A stretch of 28,490 bases of DNA from a virus. The notes below the pieces were generated by a model that searched no databases, had not been told where the DNA came from, and saw nothing but the letters and a program-made list of their open reading frames with translations. Of the stretch, positions 4,828 through 26,380 are shown in pieces. Both the position numbers and the translations under genes were made by a program. Location of the stretch: the IMG/VR virus record IMGVR_UViG_3300009537_000130, positions 1 to 28,490 of that record. One strand, written 5' to 3'. How positions within the stretch are numbered: position 1 is the first letter of the stretch; every line of letters begins with the position of its first letter.

Positions 4828-5733
4828 ATGGAACCAGTAAATACTATTGAAGCTACAGCAACGGAAACTCCGACTGTAGAAGCACAGGTTGAGCAAGGCA
4901 AGTCCACTCAACAACCACAAACAGAAGACTTATTAACAAGGGTATCAAAGTTCACTATTGACAATGACCCTAGTGTTAAGTCTACTGAAGAAATAAATTC
5001 TGGAGTGTTTAATGACTCTGAATTAACATCTAAACTGGAGAGTATTGAAGACCCTGTTCTTAAAGAACAAATGTCAGCTCTTCGTAAGTCGTTGGTATCA
5101 GGTGTCAATGGAAAGTTTCAGGAAATAGCCGAGATTCGTAAGGAGCTTCAAGCTATGAAGACAGAAACTAAAGCGGTTCAGAATGAACAATGGACACCAG
5201 AGCGAGTTCAATCGCTTATTAATGACCCTACTTTTGTAGAAGCCGCACAGAAAGTCGCTGGAACAGAGTCAATAGATTCTGATGAGTATTCTAGTCTTTC
5301 TGACGCTGAAAAAGCTAGGATTCAAGATATGGAATCTAAGATTAAGGAACTTAAAGATCTTAATGCAAAGTCTCTTGAAACTCAGCAGATTCAATTAAGA
5401 CAGCAACAACATGAGCAATTTAAGCAAAAATATTCTGATTATGATCCTAAACAAATAGATACAATAACTTATGATATGTTAAATGGTAAGATTCAAGCAA
5501 CGCCAGAGCATATTTATAAGGCTTGGAATTATGACAAGAATATTAATGCGTCTTATGAGATGGGTCGTAGGGATGAACGAGAAGGTGTCCGAAGCAAAGT
5601 ACAATCAATGTCTGCGGAAGGTATTCAGACTTCTCATGCATCAACTCCTTATAAAAAAGAGGATAATGAGAGTCAGAAAAACTTTATTAATAGAATAATC
5701 GCAGATAAACTAAGTAAATTACCAAGAAAATAA
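4828..5733 (+). CDS. Scaffolding protein candidate
   Basis: 301 aa from the ATG at 4828, which has AAGGA eight bases upstream. In-frame ATGs further upstream, at 4756 and 4819, lack suitable spacing. The protein is acidic, low in aromatics and largely helical. The first 40 residues are Thr/Glu/Gln-rich and probably disordered, residues about 165-225 form a long coiled coil (DMESKIKELKDLNAKSLETQ and following Gln-rich helix), and the C-terminus is basic (IIADKLSKLPRK), as in P22-type scaffolds whose basic helix binds the coat. Position immediately before the coat gene is the classic scaffold slot. The role is inferred from composition and gene order, since scaffolds share little sequence. Confidence 0.75.
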   Translation: MEPVNTIEATATETPTVEAQVEQGKSTQQPQTEDLLTRVSKFTIDNDPSVKSTEEINSGVFNDSELTSKLESIEDPVLKEQMSALRKSLVSGVNGKFQEIAEIRKELQAMKTETKAVQNEQWTPERVQSLINDPTFVEAAQKVAGTESIDSDEYSSLSDAEKARIQDMESKIKELKDLNAKSLETQQIQLRQQQHEQFKQKYSDYDPKQIDTITYDMLNGKIQATPEHIYKAWNYDKNINASYEMGRRDEREGVRSKVQSMSAEGIQTSHASTPYKKEDNESQKNFINRIIADKLSKLPRK

Positions 5734-13177: not shown

Positions 13178-13333
13178 ATGGGATTATCAACAGAACAAAC
13201 AGTAGCAGTAATGGAATCGACAGCAAAGGTGATTGAGAAGACTCAGCCTAAGACTAACTATGGATGGGCTTTAGTTATGGTCATAATTCCTGTGATATTA
13301 ACATGGTATCTATCAAGGTGGAAAAATGACTGA
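13178..13333 (+). CDS. Small single-span membrane protein (51 aa), lysis cassette
   Basis: 51 aa. The N-terminal 25 residues are polar and helical, then a transmembrane segment at about 30-46 (WALVMVIIPVILTWYL) and a short basic end (SRWKND). This is typical of tiny phage holin-like or antiholin-like proteins. The ATG at 13178 has no good ribosome binding site, but the end overlaps the next gene (ATGACTGA), which points to a coupled gene pair. Lysis role inferred from membrane span and neighbours. Confidence 0.6.
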   Translation: MGLSTEQTVAVMESTAKVIEKTQPKTNYGWALVMVIIPVILTWYLSRWKND

Positions 13334-13649
13334 AGAATTAGAAGGTAAAATAAATAAAAGTCTTAGGGATATACACGTATCTATTCAATCTGTAGATAAG
13401 ACGGTTGGGATTCTTAGCGCAACAACGAAAGAACAATATAAAACAACAACAGACCTTTTAGCCCATGTAAGAATGAAAGCTCAGTTAAACCGTGACAATC
13501 TCGATCACCACTTAGTTGATTGCGAGAAGATGAAATCAGAAATAGTAAATAGCTGTAAAGGGCACACGAACAAAATGTTTTGGGGTATGTTTTTAGCTTT
13601 TTCAACTTTAACTGGGATAGTGGTAAGTATCGTAAGGCTATTTTTATGA
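13326..13649 (+). CDS. Holin-like protein with a C-terminal membrane segment (107 aa)
   Basis: 107 aa. Residues 1-80 are an amphipathic, coiled-coil-prone helix (Leu/Ile heptads, polar otherwise) and residues 84-105 (MFWGMFLAFSTLTGIVVSIV) are a single transmembrane segment. This matches the layout of XhlA-type holin accessory proteins, though no diagnostic motif exists for that family. It sits in a tight run with a second small membrane protein upstream and a lipoprotein and hydrolase downstream. Its stop overlaps the next start (ATGA). A role in lysis is inferred from topology and context. Confidence 0.65.
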   Translation: MTEELEGKINKSLRDIHVSIQSVDKTVGILSATTKEQYKTTTDLLAHVRMKAQLNRDNLDHHLVDCEKMKSEIVNSCKGHTNKMFWGMFLAFSTLTGIVVSIVRLFL

Positions 13650-14005: not shown

Positions 14006-14192
14006 ATCTTGTTACATGTTTTTAGTTGTTGTTTTAATGCTTAGTGGGTGCGCTCATTGTTCAACAACTGTATCTCATTTCGATGGAAAAACATTTGGGA
14101 TAAATCCTTACGGTTCTGGTAACTTAAAAGTAGACAGGATAACTTCTTGGGGGTCTAGTAATTGTGTATTTAATGGCGGGGAAATAAAGTGA
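13995..14192 (+). CDS. Small lipoprotein (65 aa)
   Basis: 65 aa. Basic start (KPKS), hydrophobic core (CYMFLVVVLML) and lipobox LSGC with the cysteine at residue 19, so the mature lipoprotein is about 47 residues and anchored to a membrane, probably the outer one in a Gram-negative host. The mature part is short and polar, with two more cysteines. Position between the holin-like gene and the hydrolase suggests an outer-membrane spanin subunit (o-spanin) or a superinfection-exclusion lipoprotein. It lacks the Pro-rich tail usual in Rz1. Overlaps the previous gene by 11 bases. Confidence 0.7.
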   Translation: MKPKSCYMFLVVVLMLSGCAHCSTTVSHFDGKTFGINPYGSGNLKVDRITSWGSSNCVFNGGEIK

Positions 14193-14776
14193 ATTTAGAC
14201 AATTTCAAAATGGGGTATGTAATACTGTATAAAGGTTCAGGTAAAGTAGGAAAGCTTATTGGAGATCATCAAAGGTCTATAGGCTTATCTGAAGAAGCCT
14301 GTGGATATTCTCATGTAGAGATTCTTGGTGGAGGACCGTACAGCGTTAGAACTAACCCACCCATGACAAAGATAGTTGAATTTGTTAATGAGCATAAAGG
14401 TAGAGAATATATAGTGTTGAAATGTTTGCGAGAAGATTTTGACCGTAAGAGGTATAAGATAGCCTTTTGGTCATCATCATTATGTAACTTGAAATATGAT
14501 TTTAAAGGCATAGCAAAGTTTAAATTAAAGAAACTTATCTGGCATGATTCTGATAAATACTTTTGTTCTGAGAATGTGTGTTGGTCATATCAAAAAGAAT
14601 ATAAAGACTTTATGGGAGGAATATCCCCTCATAAAGTTACCCCTGGTCATTTCTATGATAGCATTGAATTTGAGGAGGTGTTTAGTGGTAAGATTCCTGA
14701 GCAAACCAAAAAAGTGGATAGTAAAGACATTCAAAATAAGACCGGTTTTAAAGACCCAGAATGGAGAAAAATTTAA
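14189..14776 (+). CDS. Permuted NlpC/P60-type (YiiX-like) hydrolase
   Basis: 195 aa starting at GTG (14189), which overlaps the previous TGA (GTGA). The layout is that of circularly permuted NlpC/P60 papain-like enzymes: a start with GYVILYKGSG, the catalytic His in GYSHVEI (H42), then KYDFKGI and the catalytic Cys in YFCSENVCW (C126). The order His then Cys is the permuted one. The family includes amidases and acyl-transfer enzymes of cell-wall or lipid substrates. Next to the holin-like and lipoprotein genes it is a good candidate for the endolysin or a related wall hydrolase. No signal peptide, so it would depend on a holin. The C-terminal 40 residues are polar and may be a tail. Confidence 0.7.
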   Translation: MNLDNFKMGYVILYKGSGKVGKLIGDHQRSIGLSEEACGYSHVEILGGGPYSVRTNPPMTKIVEFVNEHKGREYIVLKCLREDFDRKRYKIAFWSSSLCNLKYDFKGIAKFKLKKLIWHDSDKYFCSENVCWSYQKEYKDFMGGISPHKVTPGHFYDSIEFEEVFSGKIPEQTKKVDSKDIQNKTGFKDPEWRKI

Positions 14777-17971: not shown

Positions 17972-18916
17972 ATGGGAACAGTATCAAAAACACATACAGC
18001 GGCTTCTGGGGCGGTTATTCCTTCATCTGGGATTAATACAAACTTTGATACGCTATATACATTAGTTAATGGGAATGTTGATAATGATAATATAAAGGCT
18101 TCGGCTGGCATTGTTGCAACTAAACTAAATCTGGCTACGATTGCTCAGGCTATTGCCATGAACGCTTCGCTTACTATGGGTAGTATATTTAAGTTTGCTA
18201 AAGGGGCAGATGTTGCAAGCGCAACAACTACCACCCTTGGTGCTGACGGTAACTTCTTTGATATTACTGGGACAACTACTATAACCTCTGTAACAGCAAA
18301 AACCGCTGGGACTATTGTAATCCTACAGTTTGATGGCATATTAACATTTACTGACGGAAGCAATTTAAAACTGAATGGTGATTTTGCAACTGCCGCTGGG
18401 TCTGTTATAGCTTTGATTAGTGATGGGACAAATTGGTTTGAAGTTAGCAGAACTCCTGAGAATGTTAACGCAGGAACGGCTGTACAAGTAGTCAACACTC
18501 AGACAGGAGCTACTTCCTCTGGAACAACAGCTATTCCCCAAGATGACACTATCCCTCAAAATACAGAGGGTGATGAGTTAATGACGTTGGCTATTACACC
18601 GACAAACACTAATAATAAACTTAAAATAGACGTGGTAGTTAATCACTATCATTCAACAGCGGTGCTGGGAACGATAGCATTATTTCAAGATTCAACAGCA
18701 GATGCTTTAGCGTGTGCATTAACAACGGTTGGTGGGACCTATACAACTTGTATGACGTTTACTCATTATATGACAGCTGGCACAACAAGTTCCACTACTT
18801 TTAAGGTAAGGGCTGGTAATGCGTCTGGGACGTTTGTATTTAATGGAAATGCTGGGGGTAGGTTAATGGGTGGAACCTGTGCTTCTTCAATAACAATAAC
18901 TGAAATTAAGGTTTAA
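17972..18916 (+). CDS. Tail fibre / receptor-binding protein candidate (314 aa)
   Basis: 314 aa with TAGGAGGAATT before ATG. The first 60 residues (TAASGAVIPSSGINTNFDTL, NDNIKASAGIVATKLNL) match the N-terminal attachment pattern of many phage fibres, with a trimerising look (N-x-D-N-I-K..I). A Thr/Gly-rich beta shaft follows (residues 60-170), then a C-terminal jelly-roll-like domain (NTQTGATSSGTTAIP, DELMTLAITPTNTNNKLKID, then TGNASGTFVFNG-like strands), a layout seen at the tips of fibres that bind receptors. Three cysteines only. Call rests on architecture and position after the tail hub. Confidence 0.65.
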   Translation: MGTVSKTHTAASGAVIPSSGINTNFDTLYTLVNGNVDNDNIKASAGIVATKLNLATIAQAIAMNASLTMGSIFKFAKGADVASATTTTLGADGNFFDITGTTTITSVTAKTAGTIVILQFDGILTFTDGSNLKLNGDFATAAGSVIALISDGTNWFEVSRTPENVNAGTAVQVVNTQTGATSSGTTAIPQDDTIPQNTEGDELMTLAITPTNTNNKLKIDVVVNHYHSTAVLGTIALFQDSTADALACALTTVGGTYTTCMTFTHYMTAGTTSSTTFKVRAGNASGTFVFNGNAGGRLMGGTCASSITITEIKV

Positions 18917-19356
18917 TGGATAACCCAATAGAACAACTTGTAAGCATTTATATCAATGAAGAACTCTGGGACAACGATAAATTATCTGAACCAGAGGCAT
19001 ATGAATATTTTAAAAAGAAAGTTGATCTAAAGAATATCGTGTTTCATGCAATTGACGGCGAGATAGTAGCGTATATGGAAGTATGGTTAATTACTTATGA
19101 ACAGTTAAAACGGTTAATTGGTGGTAAGAATTTTGATCCATCTAACGAAAATGTAACTGACGGAGATTATTGTTATGTTAATGATGTTTATATTCGGGAA
19201 GGGTTTAGAGGTAATGGCGTGTTAAAGAAATTGCGTAAAGAAGCATATGACTTGCATCCTAATTATACTCCTAAACTCATTACACTTAATGAAGTTAAAA
19301 ACAAGGGAAGGTTACGCACCTTTATGGGTGATAAAGTATTTAAAAGGAGAGGATAA
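18916..19356 (+). CDS. GNAT-family acetyltransferase-like protein
   Basis: 146 aa, its start overlapping the fibre stop (TAATG). Motif A of GNAT enzymes is visible: the strand YCYVNDVYI (residues 86-93), then REGFRGNGVLKKLRKEA (94-110), where R-G-N-G is the acetyl-CoA pyrophosphate loop and the helix follows. An earlier strand pair (FHAIDGEIVAYMEVW) and later helix match the fold. Phage GNAT proteins in tail clusters may modify a virion protein or a host factor. The target cannot be read from the sequence. It is a full-length small GNAT with no obvious defect. Confidence 0.75.
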   Translation: MDNPIEQLVSIYINEELWDNDKLSEPEAYEYFKKKVDLKNIVFHAIDGEIVAYMEVWLITYEQLKRLIGGKNFDPSNENVTDGDYCYVNDVYIREGFRGNGVLKKLRKEAYDLHPNYTPKLITLNEVKNKGRLRTFMGDKVFKRRG

Positions 19357-19964: not shown

Positions 19965-21014
19965 ATGCCAGACAATATAGACGTAAAGAAGAATCCTAAA
20001 GAAATATTAGGACAGCTAATAGGACAAGGTGGTAATGTTTTTGAGCAAATAAAAAAAGAAGAAGGTGAAAAAGTCCTTCGTGAGTTCTTGAAGACTAAAG
20101 GTCAAGAAGCATTACAACAACCTGGCGGAGCTGAACAATTAGCACAAAGTATATCCCAACAACCTAAACAGCAAGGGCAACCACAACAACAATTACAACA
20201 AACAGAAGGTCAACAATTCCAGTTCCCAGAACAACAAGGAATACCAGAAGCCCCTGCACAGAATATCTTACAAAGGTTGTTCTCTGCTTTACCTGGTGGT
20301 AACGCTAGAGACTTAGAGGTTAGAAATCAACAGTTGCAAAATGTCGCATTAGAGCAATCAGTACAAGGAACTCAACCTATACAACCTATTCAGGCTGCTA
20401 CATTAAACCAAGAAGAACAGAAACAACAAGCTAGAGTTGAATTAGAAACTTTCAAACAAGATAGGTTAGATGAAAGAGAACGAATTAAAGCTAGTCTAAG
20501 AGATAGTGGGGCTGATGAAAGTCAAATTAGTGCTGAGATTTTTCAAAATGATCTAGTCAATCTTGTAAGTGATTTCGACTCTATATTTCTTAAAGGTGGA
20601 CCTTTGGGTTCTGGTGGGGCTATTGGTGCAGTTGGTGGGTTACTTGGGGCAGGCACAGAAGGTAGGGCTAAGTTTGAAGCTAGTAATAGTGCTTTTCTGT
20701 TTTCTGCTGCATCATTTATTGCTAATCAAGAAGGGCGAGCTTTAAGTGATAAAGATATTGTGAGAGTAGAAAAAATTGCTGGATTAAATTTAGGAATGAA
20801 AAAAGGGGAATTTCTTGGGAAAATACAAGCTGTAATTAATTTAGCAAATACAAGGGCTAAAGCAGCTGGAAGTTCTCAAAGATTACCTTCTGCTAGAGAA
20901 TTAGTTAAGATGTCTAAACAAAAAAAGAAATCTGTTGAGTCTAATTCTGTATCTTCAACCCCAATAAGCACTTCATCTGGTAAAAAATACATTATTAAAC
21001 AAAGAGGTCAATAA
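19965..21014 (+). CDS. Ejection/internal virion protein candidate (349 aa)
   Basis: 349 aa with TAGGAGA upstream. Residues 45-85 are extremely Gln-rich (low-complexity repeats such as QQPKQQGQPQQQLQQTEG), residues 145-190 are charged helix (EEQKQQARVELETFKQDR), and residues 205-235 are Gly-rich and moderately hydrophobic (GPLGSGGAIGAVGGLLGAG), which may interact with membranes. The C-terminus is basic (MSKQKKKSVESNS). Very like a DNA-ejection protein of a short-tailed phage in composition. It overlaps the next start (TAATGG). No lytic-transglycosylase motif was seen. Confidence 0.6.
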   Translation: MPDNIDVKKNPKEILGQLIGQGGNVFEQIKKEEGEKVLREFLKTKGQEALQQPGGAEQLAQSISQQPKQQGQPQQQLQQTEGQQFQFPEQQGIPEAPAQNILQRLFSALPGGNARDLEVRNQQLQNVALEQSVQGTQPIQPIQAATLNQEEQKQQARVELETFKQDRLDERERIKASLRDSGADESQISAEIFQNDLVNLVSDFDSIFLKGGPLGSGGAIGAVGGLLGAGTEGRAKFEASNSAFLFSAASFIANQEGRALSDKDIVRVEKIAGLNLGMKKGEFLGKIQAVINLANTRAKAAGSSQRLPSARELVKMSKQKKKSVESNSVSSTPISTSSGKKYIIKQRGQ

Positions 21015-23329
21015 TGGCTATATTCGACATAACTAACCCTGATACTAACGAAACTATAAGTATTGAAGGGGATACTCCACCTACTCAACAAGATGCTTCT
21101 GATATATTTGCTCAAATGAGTCAACCTCAAGAACAATTAAGATCAGAGGCAACTCCTGAAGAACGCTTAACTGGTAAAGAAAGATTGTCTACTGGTTTTA
21201 GAACTAAACCACAAGAATTTCTTGAACAGCGACGAGAAGAAGTTGGTTTAGCACCAGGCACACCACTAGAGCCTACAGGGTTTAATGTGGAGAATTTAAA
21301 AGACTTTCCTAAAGATGTTCTTGATGCTATTGGACCTGCTTTTCCTGCTGTTGGACAAATTCTTGGGGGATTAACTGGTGGGGCAGCTTCTATACCTACT
21401 ACTGGTGGGACTGCGTCTCCTGGGGCTATTGCAATTGGAGGAATTGTTGGGGGTGGGTATGCCGAAGCTTTGAGGCAAAGAGTTGGTGATTTACTAGGAT
21501 TTGACCAAGGGACTGTCGGTCAAAGGCTATCTAAGGTTGGGGGAGAAGCAGCTTTAAGTGCTGTTGGAGAAGGGGCATCATTAACTCTTAATTTAGCTAT
21601 GAAAGCTACTAAAAAAGGCTTAGTAAAGGCTGGTACTAATCTATTAAATAAACATGGAATTGATAAGTTCAACCAGATGTTCGGACAGTTTGCTAGGAAC
21701 ATGAAACCTGCCCAAATTAAAGCTGCACAAGATATTTTAGATAAAGGTGGAAAGAACGCAAGAGCAATTCTTAATCCTGAATTTGGAACAGATGACGCTG
21801 CTATGACATTCTCTCGTCGGGTTTTGTTCGGTAGAGAAAAAGAAGGAATAGCTGCTCATATTAAAAGGCTGACTAATCTTGGAACACCAGAAGCAAAAGC
21901 TGAAATACGCCAGATGTTTAAACAGCATTTACAATTAGATGATGCAGTTATTGACACACTATCTCGTAAAGGTGCAGAGGTTAATAAGTTTGCAGATGAA
22001 GGGGTGTTGTTTAACTTAGGTAATAAAGTTAAGGAAGTTATTTATGGGAATACTAAATCTGGGACTAAAGGAATATTAAATGATATAGGAAATCAGTTAG
22101 GTAAGGAGAAATTAAAACTTGCTAAAAAAGCAGGGAAAGATTCTATTGGGCAAGAACTATCTGCTGCTAACGCTTCTATTATAGGGAAGTTATCTCAGGT
22201 TGGGTTTCTTAAGCCCGTGTCTTCTGGTGGTCAAACTATTGGGTTTGAAATAAATGAGAAGTATGCAATTACTCAAACAGGTAAAGCCCAAGAGAAAGTA
22301 TTTAAACCTTTAATTGAAAGGCTGTTTAAGAAAGAAGTTATTGGGGCAGATGATATAGTTAATAAAGCTATTGCTGGAGGGGCTAAAGGAAAAGAACTTG
22401 CTAATGTATTAAGTTCGGCTAAAAGAAAAGAGTTCTTCACTCCTGTTAATGATTTAAGTTATGGGAAGTTTGTTGGTAAACTTAGTAACCTTGACGCACA
22501 GATTTCAGGTAACGAATTTAAAGCCATTGGTGAACTTTCCCCTGTATTAACGGGTTATCTTCAAGGACTTCGAGGGGTAACTAAACAAGTAGCTGAACGA
22601 CATAACTTTAAGTCTGTGATTAACCTTACTGACGAGTTCTCTAAAGTTTCTGAAATTACTAAACCATTAAGAACTGGAGATATGGAAAACTTCTTCAGAA
22701 GTATTTCTAACAAAAATGCACTTTATGGTAGGCTTGATTCTGCCCATAACATTGATAAACTTCTTGCCAAAAAAGGCGTTAATTTATTCGACACTATTGA
22801 CAACTTTAATGCTGCGCAAGCACTTAAACCTTTTGAAACTAACATAGCTAAAGGAACAGCTACTAAAAGTTTAGTTGGCGATATAGACGCTGTGTTCTCT
22901 CCAGCTAAAGGTTCTCGTATGGATTTAAGTATGTTGGAAAAGAATGTTGATAAGTTTATGCCTAAAGATATGAAAATAGGGGAATTTGCCTTAGTTCATA
23001 ATTTGTCAAAAGAACTTGATAAGAGTGCTATATCTTTGCTTCGTGCTAGGTTCTTGTCTAATGCTATTCCTATAGCCCCTGCTTTGGGGGCAGCTACTGG
23101 AGGTTTATTGGGTGGAGGTGTTGGTGGGTCTATTATGGGACTTGGTGGAGGTATGATGTTGCAAGACCCTAGAATATTTAGATCGTTACTTAAACTGGGT
23201 CAAAAAAGTGCTAATGAAAAGCTTCTTACAAAAATAACAGCGCAAGAAGGTGCGAAACAATTACCTGCAGGTGCTGGTGCTGTAGGAAGTCAACTACTCC
23301 GTCAGCTCATTTCTTCTTCCTCTGAGTAG
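21014..23329 (+). CDS. Large ejection/internal virion protein candidate (771 aa)
   Basis: 771 aa, GAGG upstream. Residues about 105-150 and 684-720 are hydrophobic and glycine-rich with GxxxG patterns (AVGQILGGLTGGAA and AIGGIVGGGYA; ALGAATGGLLGGGVGGS), good candidates for membrane-inserting segments. The middle is mostly helical with Lys-rich stretches. No lysozyme, transglycosylase or protease motif was seen, unlike some large ejection proteins. Its size and place at the end of the virion row suggest it is the largest of three proteins injected with DNA, comparable in role to P22 gp16 or gp20. Its last 23 bases overlap a minus-strand small gene. Confidence 0.65.
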   Translation: MAIFDITNPDTNETISIEGDTPPTQQDASDIFAQMSQPQEQLRSEATPEERLTGKERLSTGFRTKPQEFLEQRREEVGLAPGTPLEPTGFNVENLKDFPKDVLDAIGPAFPAVGQILGGLTGGAASIPTTGGTASPGAIAIGGIVGGGYAEALRQRVGDLLGFDQGTVGQRLSKVGGEAALSAVGEGASLTLNLAMKATKKGLVKAGTNLLNKHGIDKFNQMFGQFARNMKPAQIKAAQDILDKGGKNARAILNPEFGTDDAAMTFSRRVLFGREKEGIAAHIKRLTNLGTPEAKAEIRQMFKQHLQLDDAVIDTLSRKGAEVNKFADEGVLFNLGNKVKEVIYGNTKSGTKGILNDIGNQLGKEKLKLAKKAGKDSIGQELSAANASIIGKLSQVGFLKPVSSGGQTIGFEINEKYAITQTGKAQEKVFKPLIERLFKKEVIGADDIVNKAIAGGAKGKELANVLSSAKRKEFFTPVNDLSYGKFVGKLSNLDAQISGNEFKAIGELSPVLTGYLQGLRGVTKQVAERHNFKSVINLTDEFSKVSEITKPLRTGDMENFFRSISNKNALYGRLDSAHNIDKLLAKKGVNLFDTIDNFNAAQALKPFETNIAKGTATKSLVGDIDAVFSPAKGSRMDLSMLEKNVDKFMPKDMKIGEFALVHNLSKELDKSAISLLRARFLSNAIPIAPALGAATGGLLGGGVGGSIMGLGGGMMLQDPRIFRSLLKLGQKSANEKLLTKITAQEGAKQLPAGAGAVGSQLLRQLISSSSE

Positions 23330-23408
23330 GGTTTTGTTTACTTTCAACATAATCTAGTATTTTGTTCTTTGCAACCCACATTAGAAACATAGCAAGTATC
23401 CATTCCAT
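23307..23408 (-). CDS. Small membrane protein (33 aa), end of the early operon
   Basis: 33 aa read on the minus strand from an ATG at 23408, with AAAGG about eight bases before it. The start is a hydrophobic segment with Trp and Met (MEWILAMFLMWVA), the rest basic and polar, ending QRKKK. It begins like the 39-aa membrane protein at 23563-23682 (ME-x-IL), and each follows a copy of the same short module, so it is the second half of a duplicated cassette. Its 3' end overlaps the 771-aa gene on the other strand. Confidence 0.45.
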   Translation of the reverse strand: MEWILAMFLMWVAKNKILDYVESKQNPTQRKKK

Positions 23409-23422
23409 AATTATGCCTTTCT

Positions 23423-23542
23423 TTAATCCTGCATATTACAAGAAAATCTATCTAAAAGAACATCTATCTTTTTATCCCGATCAAACTCATCACATTCACC
23501 GAGTTCGTTGCCTATAACGTCGCAGAACTCCTGGTCTAGATG
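23423..23542 (-). pseudogene. Remnant copy of the Cys/Asp-rich C-terminal module
   Basis: A minus-strand frame open for 39 codons between two stops and without a start codon. Its residues EFCDVIGNELGECDEF and KKIDVLLD match EFCDRIGNENRECDEF and KKIDALLD in the C-terminus of the 23682-24200 gene in order and spacing. The first part of the module is missing or degraded, and a stop lies directly before the aligned region. So this is probably a decayed tandem copy. A functional product with a non-standard start cannot be excluded. Confidence 0.6.
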
Positions 23543-23562
23543 TTAGCTTCGTACTTATCAGC

Positions 23563-23682
23563 TTACTTCTTAGATTTAAGATCATCAGCTATTTTACATA
23601 TCATGTACGTCCATAAAGAAAAAAGACCCAAAAGAAATACCAACACAATGGTTGCAAGTATCTTATATAGTATATCTTCCAT
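23563..23682 (-). CDS. Small membrane protein (39 aa)
   Basis: 39 aa on the minus strand. ATG at 23682 shares a base with the stop of the preceding gene (TAATG), so translation is probably coupled. A single transmembrane segment, about residues 8-28 (ILATIVLVFLLGLFSLWTYM), and a short basic end (DDLKSKK). No family recognised. A partner of the soluble module encoded just before it is a reasonable guess because both are duplicated together. Confidence 0.6.
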   Translation of the reverse strand: MEDILYKILATIVLVFLLGLFSLWTYMICKIADDLKSKK

Positions 23683-24200
23683 TAGCTACATCCATTATCT
23701 GAATAATGATCGAGCAAAGCGTCAATCTTTTTCTCTTTACTAAACTCGTCACATTCCCTGTTTTCATTCCCTATTCTATCACAAAACTCATGTGATAGTT
23801 CTTCGTCGCTCATGCTATCAAGTTTATCCTGGTATTCTTCACAGGTCATAGTGTTCTCCTTTATTTCTATTGGTTTTATGTTTGTACTTACCCAAGTCTT
23901 AATATCTAATATATAGTAGTTCCCTCGCCTGCTTTCCAGTTTATAATAGAACATCCATTCTTCTAGGTTAATTTCTGTTGGGTACTCAGAAAGAATAAAA
24001 ACAACGGTTGGTATGTGTGCATGGCAGAAATCTCTTTTATTTTCATTGATGTAATTAAGGTTAGTAATGCACCCATAGTAACCACATTTTTTCATTTCCC
24101 TAGGCACAAAATAAGCGACATTTTTACAGTATAGGTTAGGGTCTTTATATCCAAACAGTAACGAATCACCAATGTTATTCGGGTTAAATCCACTTTTCAT
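23682..24200 (-). CDS. Hypothetical two-part protein (172 aa) with an internal start
   Basis: 172 aa, read from the ATG at 24200 (AAGGA some 11 bases upstream). Residues 1-117 look like one domain: Cys and aromatic-rich (NLYCKNVAYFVPREMKKCGY), then strands and a Trp-rich part (NLEEWMFYYKLESRRGNYYI). Residues 118-172 are an acidic helical module (EEYQDKLDSMSDEELSHEFC and a KKIDALLD end). An ATG at 23849 opens this second part and has AGGAGA at five-base spacing, so a separate 55-aa protein is probably also made. The two parts may once have been separate genes joined by loss of a stop. No known family. Confidence 0.6.
   Translation of the reverse strand: MKSGFNPNNIGDSLLFGYKDPNLYCKNVAYFVPREMKKCGYYGCITNLNYINENKRDFCHAHIPTVVFILSEYPTEINLEEWMFYYKLESRRGNYYILDIKTWVSTNIKPIEIKENTMTCEEYQDKLDSMSDEELSHEFCDRIGNENRECDEFSKEKKIDALLDHYSDNGCS
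23850..23860 (-). promoter_or_regulatory. Ribosome binding site for an internal start
   Basis: On the minus strand AGGAGA (23860-23855) lies five bases before an in-frame ATG (23849-23847) inside the 172-aa frame. It is stronger than the site before the full-length start and would give a 55-aa product equal to the module that is duplicated downstream. Confidence 0.55.
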
Positions 24201-24203
24201 AAG

Positions 24204-24650
24204 TTATTTTTTCCTTATATGCTCGGTTCCTAAAGCCTCGAAAAAACTAACAATGTACTTGCTCATTTCCTTTCTGGTACTACAACAAACAAAAGGAACG
24301 TGGTGACGTATCATCATAGTGAACAGTTGCTTGGCTAAGCTTTTCCCGTCCCGTTGACTATATTTATGTCCCGACGATACGTCACTTAACGTCCCTTCTA
24401 TTATTATTATTAACAGTGCTTTGTCTTCTTGTGATCTTATTATTTCTCTTTTGAATCTTTTATAACCTTTCCCAAGAGTTCCAAAAAGATCAGAAATACT
24501 TTTTCTCTCAAAAGCAATTTTTGGCACATAACTATCCTTGAATTTTACCTGATAGTCGCCATAATCCAATTTCTGGACTATGACGTTATCTAGGTGTTTA
24601 GACTTGAACTTGAGGGCATTTTGCTCTCTTGAATCGACTAAAATATCCAC
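24204..24650 (-). CDS. ERCC4-type (XPF/MUS81-like) nuclease
   Basis: 148 aa. The catalytic pattern GDxnERKxxxD is visible: LDYGDYQV (G31, D32), then AFERKSISD (E48, R49, K50, D54), with DSRE at 6-9 as the first acidic element. Fold order (strand-DSRE-strand-GD-strand-ERK-helix) is that of the ERCC4 nuclease domain. In phages such enzymes cut branched DNA such as flaps, forks or Holliday junctions, and act beside annealing proteins. No helix-hairpin-helix follows, so the protein is a minimal domain. It lies in a row with the ssDNA-binding candidate and the ATPase. Confidence 0.8.
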   Translation of the reverse strand: MDILVDSREQNALKFKSKHLDNVIVQKLDYGDYQVKFKDSYVPKIAFERKSISDLFGTLGKGYKRFKREIIRSQEDKALLIIIIEGTLSDVSSGHKYSQRDGKSLAKQLFTMMIRHHVPFVCCSTRKEMSKYIVSFFEALGTEHIRKK

Positions 24651-25185: not shown

Positions 25186-25890
25186 TCACTTATAACACTC
25201 CATTATTTTCTCATAAGCCACAGCAGTTTGGCTTAAAGGATATTCTATTGACTCAGGCAATAGTTTAGCCTTGTCTTTAGCTTCCCAATATATACTTGGT
25301 TTTGTCCTTATTATTCCTATTTCTTCTTCTCCTTTCATTTCACTGTCCATGAATAGTAACGGATCACAAATATCTAACATAATTGACTTATTCTTACCAG
25401 GCACAGATATAGTTGCTCTTTTCCATGATTTTGTTTTGCTTGTCATTTCATCTTCTACGTAATGAGAAGTAAGAATTAAACCAAACTTTGATAATGATAG
25501 TTTCCGTATAACTCTTGATAATTCCTGAGTAACAAGATGGTATGCTCCAAACTTTTTATATGAAGCAATATCCTCAATTCCTAGCTCTTTACACTTCCAC
25601 TCAGTACATATTTTACAAAGCTCATCAAAATTATCAATGCACATAGTCTTAAAATCATGCTTACCTTCACAAAATTCTTTACATAATTCTAAAAATATAC
25701 CATAAGATGTAATTGTTGTTTTATTTATATTTTCTAAATGAGAAAGACCAGACTCTGTCTCTGCAAAATAAACACCATCAAATTGTGATGCTAATGTTGT
25801 CTTCCCCAGACCAGCCCTTCCATATATACCTATAACTTTTGAGCTTAAATCTGTAATCTTTTCTTCTGGGATATTATTTATTAAAGACAT
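25186..25890 (-). CDS. Sak4-like RecA-fold ATPase
   Basis: 234 aa. Walker A at GRAGLGKTT (residues 24-32, K30) and Walker B at KTMCIDNFDE (81-90, D86 and E90), with a second strand-helix pair ending LTSHY (sensor-like). This is the AAA_24/Sak4 pattern: short RecA-like core with no DNA polymerase or helicase addition. Sak4 proteins anneal ssDNA with the help of a cognate SSB. AGGAGA before ATG lies within the last codons of the homing endonuclease gene. It is followed by its probable SSB partner and preceded on the operon by YqaJ exonuclease. Confidence 0.75.
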   Translation of the reverse strand: MSLINNIPEEKITDLSSKVIGIYGRAGLGKTTLASQFDGVYFAETESGLSHLENINKTTITSYGIFLELCKEFCEGKHDFKTMCIDNFDELCKICTEWKCKELGIEDIASYKKFGAYHLVTQELSRVIRKLSLSKFGLILTSHYVEDEMTSKTKSWKRATISVPGKNKSIMLDICDPLLFMDSEMKGEEEIGIIRTKPSIYWEAKDKAKLLPESIEYPLSQTAVAYEKIMECYK

Positions 25891-26380
25891 TTTCTCTCCT
25901 TTCTAATATGTTTTTATTTGCAAACTTATTATGGAAAATATGAGCAGCAACATTGTATGCTAATGCCGCATCTCTTTTGTCATAATACGTTCCTATTGAA
26001 TGATACTTTCCATTATGTTTTATTCTTACACTCCATCTTCTAAGTTGTTTATGCCAAGAAACACCCTTATACCCAGAAGTATTGTTTTTTTGTTTTGATC
26101 TGTTTCTTAAGTTTTCATAATGTAATGCCATACGAATATTACTTTTCCTATTATCTAAAGTGTTTCTATTAATATGGTCAACGTCAATGCTTGAATTGTA
26201 AACACCAAGAATTGCCCTGTGCATACGAACATACCTTTGTTTTTTATTTCGAGTTTGGTATCTACAAGCATAAATATTTTCACCTTGTATTAAAGCGTGC
26301 CATTTAAATTGATTTAAAAATTCATAATCATCTTCATCGACAACAGCCTTATATCCTTGTGTTAACTCAATTGACAACAT
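25874..26380 (-). CDS. HNH-AP2 homing endonuclease
   Basis: 168 aa. HNH nuclease core: MHRAILG (H54), then DVDHINRNTLDNRKSNIRMA with D68-H69 and N72, and ENLRNRS, a full HNH_3-type motif set. Residues 102-155 form an AP2-like DNA-binding domain (SGYKGVSWHKQLRRWSVRI, HNGKYHSIGTYYDKRDAALA). This pairing is known from free-standing homing endonucleases in phages. It overlaps the 60-aa gene before it by 14 bases and the ATPase start after it by 17 bases, so it is neatly stitched into the operon. It cuts specific DNA, and may promote its own spread. Confidence 0.85.
   Translation of the reverse strand: MLSIELTQGYKAVVDEDDYEFLNQFKWHALIQGENIYACRYQTRNKKQRYVRMHRAILGVYNSSIDVDHINRNTLDNRKSNIRMALHYENLRNRSKQKNNTSGYKGVSWHKQLRRWSVRIKHNGKYHSIGTYYDKRDAALAYNVAAHIFHNKFANKNILERRENVFNK

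Follow-up and report, generated by a model that had tools for sequence, protein, structure and literature searches.

Type I toxin-antitoxin systems encode small hydrophobic toxins, such as Ibs, TisB and Hok, and small membrane proteins are also carried by phages, among them the Imm-like proteins, which act in superinfection exclusion, and the pinholins, which act in lysis. Rho_N/SAP-like domains, in turn, usually touch nucleic acid. We analyzed a virus record of 28,490 bases, IMG/VR record IMGVR_UViG_3300009537_000130 (the whole stretch is referred to as the window), which derives from an uncultured tailed phage with a presumably early replication operon. At the tip of its minus-strand operon, tail-to-tail with the virion block, lies a cassette containing two copies of an acidic module and two small hydrophobic open reading frames (ORFs), TM1 and TM2. 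The explanation that we favor, at a probability of roughly 45%, is that the cassette combines a fast-evolving early membrane peptide that acts on the host envelope with a lineage-specific module that was added, duplicated and half decayed. By its position, the membrane peptide is the older of the two parts. The features of the locus, with lengths in amino acids (aa), are as follows.

21014..23329, plus strand: last gene of the virion block, 771 aa; its 3' end meets the minus-strand operon, and it has relatives in two loci, L032 and L113
23307..23408, minus strand: TM2, 33 aa; a short hydrophobic stretch and a basic tail, at the junction position
23423..23542, minus strand: relic of module 2; 39 open codons, no start codon, homologous to module 1
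23563..23682, minus strand: TM1, 39 aa; one clear membrane span, best 15-residue mean hydropathy 2.79
23682..23849, minus strand: module 1, 55 aa; acidic (isoelectric point 4.2, charge about -11), with its own AAAGGAG
23682..24200, minus strand: ORF of 172 aa; module 1 is its in-frame 3' end, and its N-terminal part holds a C-x4-C ... C-x2-H pattern seen by eye
24204..24650, minus strand: ERCC4-type nuclease, upstream in the operon of the cassette (PF02732, E-value 3.6e-17)

The virion genes run on the plus strand up to 23329, and replication and recombination genes (a YqaJ-type exonuclease, an AP2/HNH protein, a Sak4-like protein and the ERCC4 nuclease) head toward them on the minus strand. 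Along the minus strand, the 172-aa ORF, which ends in module 1, is followed by TM1, the module 2 relic, TM2 and, sharing 23 nucleotides (nt) with TM2, the end of the 771-aa gene. Both modules and both small ORFs were found where an initial annotation of this DNA had placed them. There was no convincing intrinsic terminator at the junction; the search gave one weak match, inside module 1 on the plus strand, which was no more than was obtained in shuffled sequences.

To our main result: relatives were gathered via the capsid protein, the ERCC4 nuclease, the 771-aa protein and a 199-aa virion-block protein (a two-row alignment scan with the 771-aa protein gave 2 loci only), and the last virion gene of each was picked by eye on mechanical ORF maps. 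In these relatives, small membrane ORFs recur where the last virion-block gene ends. We counted an ORF of 16-70 aa with a Shine-Dalgarno match at its start, a mean hydropathy of at least 2.0 over 15 residues and a stop at -30 to +60 nt from the end of the virion gene. At 10 of the 13 junctions, a membrane peptide of 18-51 aa with a ribosome-binding site passed this rule, and 9 still did so at a hydropathy threshold of 2.3. The count omits L125, whose following genes are mapped in the same direction, L126, for which the last virion gene had no clear position, and contigs that stop short of the junction, such as G005, G013, L133 and L140. Control ORF ends came from the same type of mechanical map, with false genes included. 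They passed in 5 of 299 cases in the related loci and in 12 of 497 in ERCC4-bearing loci of other phages (3 and 9, respectively, at 2.3); when only convergent ends were considered, the numbers fell to 0 of 25 and 1 of 71 (0 of 25 and 0 of 71 at 2.3).

The peptides in L032 (MIGTIFIIICVIIVVFSIYCAIKH), L113 (MFIPWWLLLIIIVAIFSMYDY), L119 (MTYLLIMVIVIILSVADS) and L132 (METIWNGALTGIGFLIGVVVLMFVISVISSWFS) belong, together with that of L030, to the five whose stop interlocks with the stop of the virion gene by 4 nt. In the window and at all 13 junctions, the peptide ORF lies on the strand opposite the virion block. Among the 12 junctions with a listed ORF, 7 show an overlap with the virion gene of 0-8 nt and the other 5 (the window, G001, G007, L135 and L138) one of 23-53 nt; the idea that the peptides are an antisense shadow of the virion gene was rejected because the overlap is so short in those 7. 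The gene upstream of the peptide is zinc-finger-like in L119 and L022, the ERCC4 nuclease in L032 and a 69-aa ORF in L113. In L113 and L119, the peptide start overlaps the stop of this upstream gene, which is itself a different gene in each. The peptide genes of L113 and L129 have 14 identical bases in common (0 of 300 shuffles). Thus, the shared position of the junction peptides is clear, and their homology is established only in part. No description of such peptides was found in a survey of the literature short of full texts.

Some further small ORFs were noted near these junctions. In L135, a 61-aa ORF (5387-5572, minus strand) with a lipobox-like LVLMSGC and a proline-rich tail lies directly upstream of the 53-aa junction peptide and by eye resembles an outer spanin. 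In L125, a 76-aa ORF (14114-14344, minus strand) with AGGAGG, a signal-like start and a match to a choline-binding repeat (E-value 3.1e-07) reaches 7 nt into the virion gene, though the next genes run the other way. More small membrane ORFs with strong Shine-Dalgarno sequences occur in the same operons of L118 (8036-8162, minus strand), L119 (10030-10239, plus strand) and L026 (1919-1996, plus strand), so that tiny membrane peptides appear abundant in these phages.

The second component of the cassette is the acidic module. As the initial annotation had described, copy 1 is intact and has its own ribosome-binding site. We read this site as AAAGGAG ahead of the ATG, and we find that the module stop and the TM1 start overlap (TAATG). 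Copy 2 matches it with 62% identity over 37 residues (E-value 2.6e-12 within the record; 59% in a separate alignment). The Smith-Waterman score of the pair was 122, and the maximum among 20,000 shuffles was 59; the similarity, which the annotation had proposed to check, therefore does not drop to chance. The two copies differ at 11, 10 and 18 first, second and third codon positions, respectively, over 34 codons, so that third-position changes predominate. The non-synonymous divergence (dN) was 0.36, while the synonymous divergence (dS) was not computable (the script returned -1, which was taken as saturated). Because of the excess at third positions, this dN and a dS taken as saturated, the copies appear to have diverged long ago, with each constrained as a protein for most of that time. 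Copy 2 now has no start and lacks most of the first 20 residues: its frame runs into a TAA at 23545-23543, and there is no ATG, GTG or TTG in any frame between the TM1 stop and the conserved core. Expression of copy 2 through simple re-initiation was rejected, since no start codon is nearby. These comparisons support well the view that the modules are true homologues produced by duplication and part-decay, which upholds the earlier proposal on this point.

We searched for the module in other sequences, using scans that reach close relatives only, so that a distant relative may exist. In IMG/VR, six patterns from module 1 gave 11 candidate stretches and two patterns from the module alignment gave 70, none of which was confirmed. 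Among isolate phages, tblastn gave nothing at a useful E-value (best 0.7 and 5), and the module was present in none of 16 related records (0 of 14 and 0 of 2). Of the 24 candidate stretches in GTDB genomes, one (L112) was confirmed; it was taken as a chance match rather than a real module because it is antisense to a long ORF, presumably an aminopeptidase. A profile of the two copies run with all filters off against the 139 fetched loci found this same match as its best (E-value 0.51). PHROG matches of module 1 (E-values 0.012, 0.044 and 0.079) were set aside as partial in coverage and without function. A widespread phage family was thus rejected, the module being absent from the IMG/VR, GTDB and isolate-phage scans. 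The initial annotation had read module and membrane peptide as a linked two-protein system and had proposed to look for the pair in other genomes. None of the collections searched holds such a pair, and at the junctions of the relatives a small membrane peptide is kept without the module, behind different genes; on both counts, the two-protein reading fails in these collections.

It had also been claimed that each module is followed by a small single-span membrane protein and that the whole unit was duplicated. A small hydrophobic ORF does follow each module, and the span of TM1 is clear, but that of TM2 is doubtful: the mainly hydrophobic run of TM2 extends over no more than about 11 residues, and the best 15-residue mean hydropathy of this ORF is 1.51, against 2.79 for TM1. 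The two peptides are alike in their ME start and in KIADDLKSKK versus KILDYVESKQ. The similarity gave p values of 0.004 with plain shuffles and 0.015 with block-wise shuffles; with the hydrophobic pattern kept, p was 0.035 in local and 0.10 in global alignment. Hence, duplication of the module stands, while kinship of TM1 and TM2 is unproved on these alignments.

A structure of the module was predicted with AlphaFold from the two-row alignment, with a mean predicted local distance difference test (pLDDT) score of 86.7 and helices at residues 3-12, 15-26, 32-35 and 38-51. Foldseek against the PDB gave weak matches only (FAN1, Rho, 3'hExo and HES-1, E-values 4.5-9). In VIA-align, four Rho entries came out on top, with Z of 5.9-6.5 and a root-mean-square deviation of 2.0-2.4 over 47-50 residues, covering approximately the first 48 residues of Rho, followed by FAN1 462-521 and 3'hExo 67-117; a Z under 8 may reflect a common arrangement, as in small helical folds. 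Matches among viral models included several named Rho termination factor N-terminal domain, at an E-value of 0.31 or worse. A Pfam scan at E-values up to 10 gave only DBD_HTH at 0.21 for module 1, nothing for module 2 and no Rho_N, and there were no matches to PDB sequences. The predicted module thus resembles the three-helix fold of the Rho N-terminal/SAP domains, and we take this as a resemblance and no more. Nucleic-acid binding by the module appears unlikely because of its charge of about -11.

Taken together, these data suggest the following tentative scenario. In this phage group, as shown by position, the operon ends in a gene for a tiny membrane peptide with a single span, in most cases preceded by a ribosome-binding site of its own. 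In the lineage of the window, a small acidic domain predicted to resemble the Rho N-terminal/SAP fold lies just upstream of it, and the overlap observed between the module stop and the TM1 start would couple their translation. This module was duplicated in the distant past, probably together with its peptide as a tandem unit. Later, the start of the junction-side module was lost, and part of the span of the peptide beside it may have gone as well. The peptide, assigned to the replication operon because of its place and the stop-start overlap and to the host inner membrane because of its composition, would be made early and inserted there. An N-out, C-in orientation is suggested by the acidic start (ME-) and basic tail of several members. 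Judging from the sequences, a role in host takeover, immunity or exclusion is possible: the peptide would alter the host envelope, most likely guarding against other phages or aiding takeover, and the module would be a lineage-specific helper or cargo, probably protein-binding given its charge.

Several points weigh against this scenario. The limits of the census rule were fixed after a first look at these contigs. The window itself fails the rule: the hydrophobicity of TM2 is weak, and TM1 is located 233 nt further in. L127 and L135 fail too, the former for having no Shine-Dalgarno match and the latter for a hydropathy of 1.75, so that their small hydrophobic junction ORFs (55 and 53 aa, respectively) fall outside it. 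Most pairs of junction peptides show no clear sequence kinship, and pairs other than L113 and L129 are marginal. Finally, the Rho_N match is weak, with Foldseek E-values of at least 4.5 in the PDB and no sequence match.

Among the other explanations, the strongest, although we consider it somewhat doubtful, is that module 1 is merely the C-terminal domain of a 172-aa zinc-finger-like protein and makes no protein of its own. There is no stop between module 1 and the preceding 117 residues, a fact overlooked in the initial annotation. In addition, genes in the same place in L119 (CGFQNC ... CYAH) and L022 show by eye a C-x4-C ... C-x2-H-like pattern, and the stop of the L119 gene overlaps the peptide start, as the stop of the 172-aa ORF does here. 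However, the internal ATG carries AAAGGAG, module 2 is present without a zinc-finger part, and the zinc-finger-like proteins of L022 and L119 have no module. An iterated profile search did not join the 172-aa ORF with these genes, and the AlphaFold model of the whole ORF (mean pLDDT 49.7) was too poor to decide the domain question. From the reading frames, module 1 may be a C-terminal domain of the 172-aa ORF or the product of an internal start.

A toxin-antitoxin-like or immunity pair, a view close to that of the initial annotation, is unlikely. Here, the acidic module would neutralize the hydrophobic peptide, and the duplicate would represent a second such pair that has decayed. The gene order with its stop-start overlap, the opposite nature of the products (acidic and soluble against hydrophobic) and the maintenance of a duplicated module under constraint would all fit such a pair, but relatives have the junction peptide without the module. 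Furthermore, the copy 2 module is dead while its peptide ORF is open, which would not be tolerable unless TM2 were harmless.

It is likewise improbable that T-rich DNA between operons gave rise to the junction ORFs only recently and that they became fixed with hardly any function or none. It has been argued for yeast that T-rich DNA readily yields membrane spans (PMC7005711). Most of the peptides share little sequence kinship, and their hydrophobicity follows composition, as this view would predict. Nevertheless, resampled DNA of the junction stretches is expected to give 0.14 passes per 13, against the 10 seen, and other convergent ORF ends almost never pass (0 of 25 and 1 of 71). The Shine-Dalgarno matches and tight stop-start overlaps also argue for selected translation.

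Still less probable is a lysis or lysis-timing protein of the pinholin or antiholin kind. The size and single span of the peptide would suit it, and the outer-spanin-like ORF of L135 adjoins the junction peptide. On the other hand, the strand is wrong for late genes, and scans of Pfam and PHROGs placed the junction peptides in no lysis family (best PHROGs E-value 0.11, of unknown function); against lysis families, TM1 gave only an Rz-like spanin at 0.16. Moreover, the late block has a C-terminally anchored 107-aa protein of its own (13326-13649) that could serve as a holin. Least probable of all is an antisense switch in which position is the conserved trait: the early membrane-active peptide would be kept stop-to-stop with the last virion gene, and antisense RNA from late transcription through the junction would silence it once the virion genes are on. 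If true, this would provide a built-in early-to-late control of a host-membrane effector, and in the window the added acidic Rho_N-like mini-protein might interfere with host Rho at a junction that showed no convincing intrinsic terminator.

Other genes of the window were also noted. A 168-aa protein (25874-26380, minus strand) matched AP2 at an E-value of 2.1e-07, just under the Pfam cut-off, and HNH_3 at 0.0035; its gene shares 17 nt with the beginning of the Sak4-like gene, and by eye the protein resembles a free-standing homing endonuclease. Within the virion block, a GNAT acetyltransferase-like gene (18916-19356, plus strand; PF00583, E-value 5.3e-05) is retained in most relatives covering that place. 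A 195-aa protein (14189-14776, plus strand) matched phrog_1128 (E-value 7.4e-15), named enoyl-CoA hydratase-like in PHROG; by eye its sequence is closer to a papain-like/NlpC-P60 hydrolase, and the label may be wrong. Megablast with bases 1-25000 of the window and tblastn of the portal and the 199-aa virion protein against isolate phages gave nothing useful.

The position of these peptides, which recurs in most contigs of the phage group although the sequences have little in common, makes it possible to look for phage effectors by location instead of homology, among tiny hydrophobic ORFs at operon ends that gene callers easily miss. The cassette also illustrates how a lineage-specific neighbor can pass for a functional partner. 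The acidic module is an orphan mini-domain, and its likeness to Rho_N, if it holds, points to a binding partner. Compared with Rho_N/SAP-like domains, the module is alike in the predicted order of its helices but differs in its strong acidity and in having no sequence match. The junction peptides resemble the type I toxins Ibs, TisB and Hok in hydrophobicity and are of similar length, and the converging transcript could act here as an antisense RNA; they differ in that the peptide gene is the last of a phage operon, and they are known from sequence alone. Like Imm-like proteins and pinholins, they are tiny, phage-borne and of a single span, but they match no family and stand at the tip of a replication operon.

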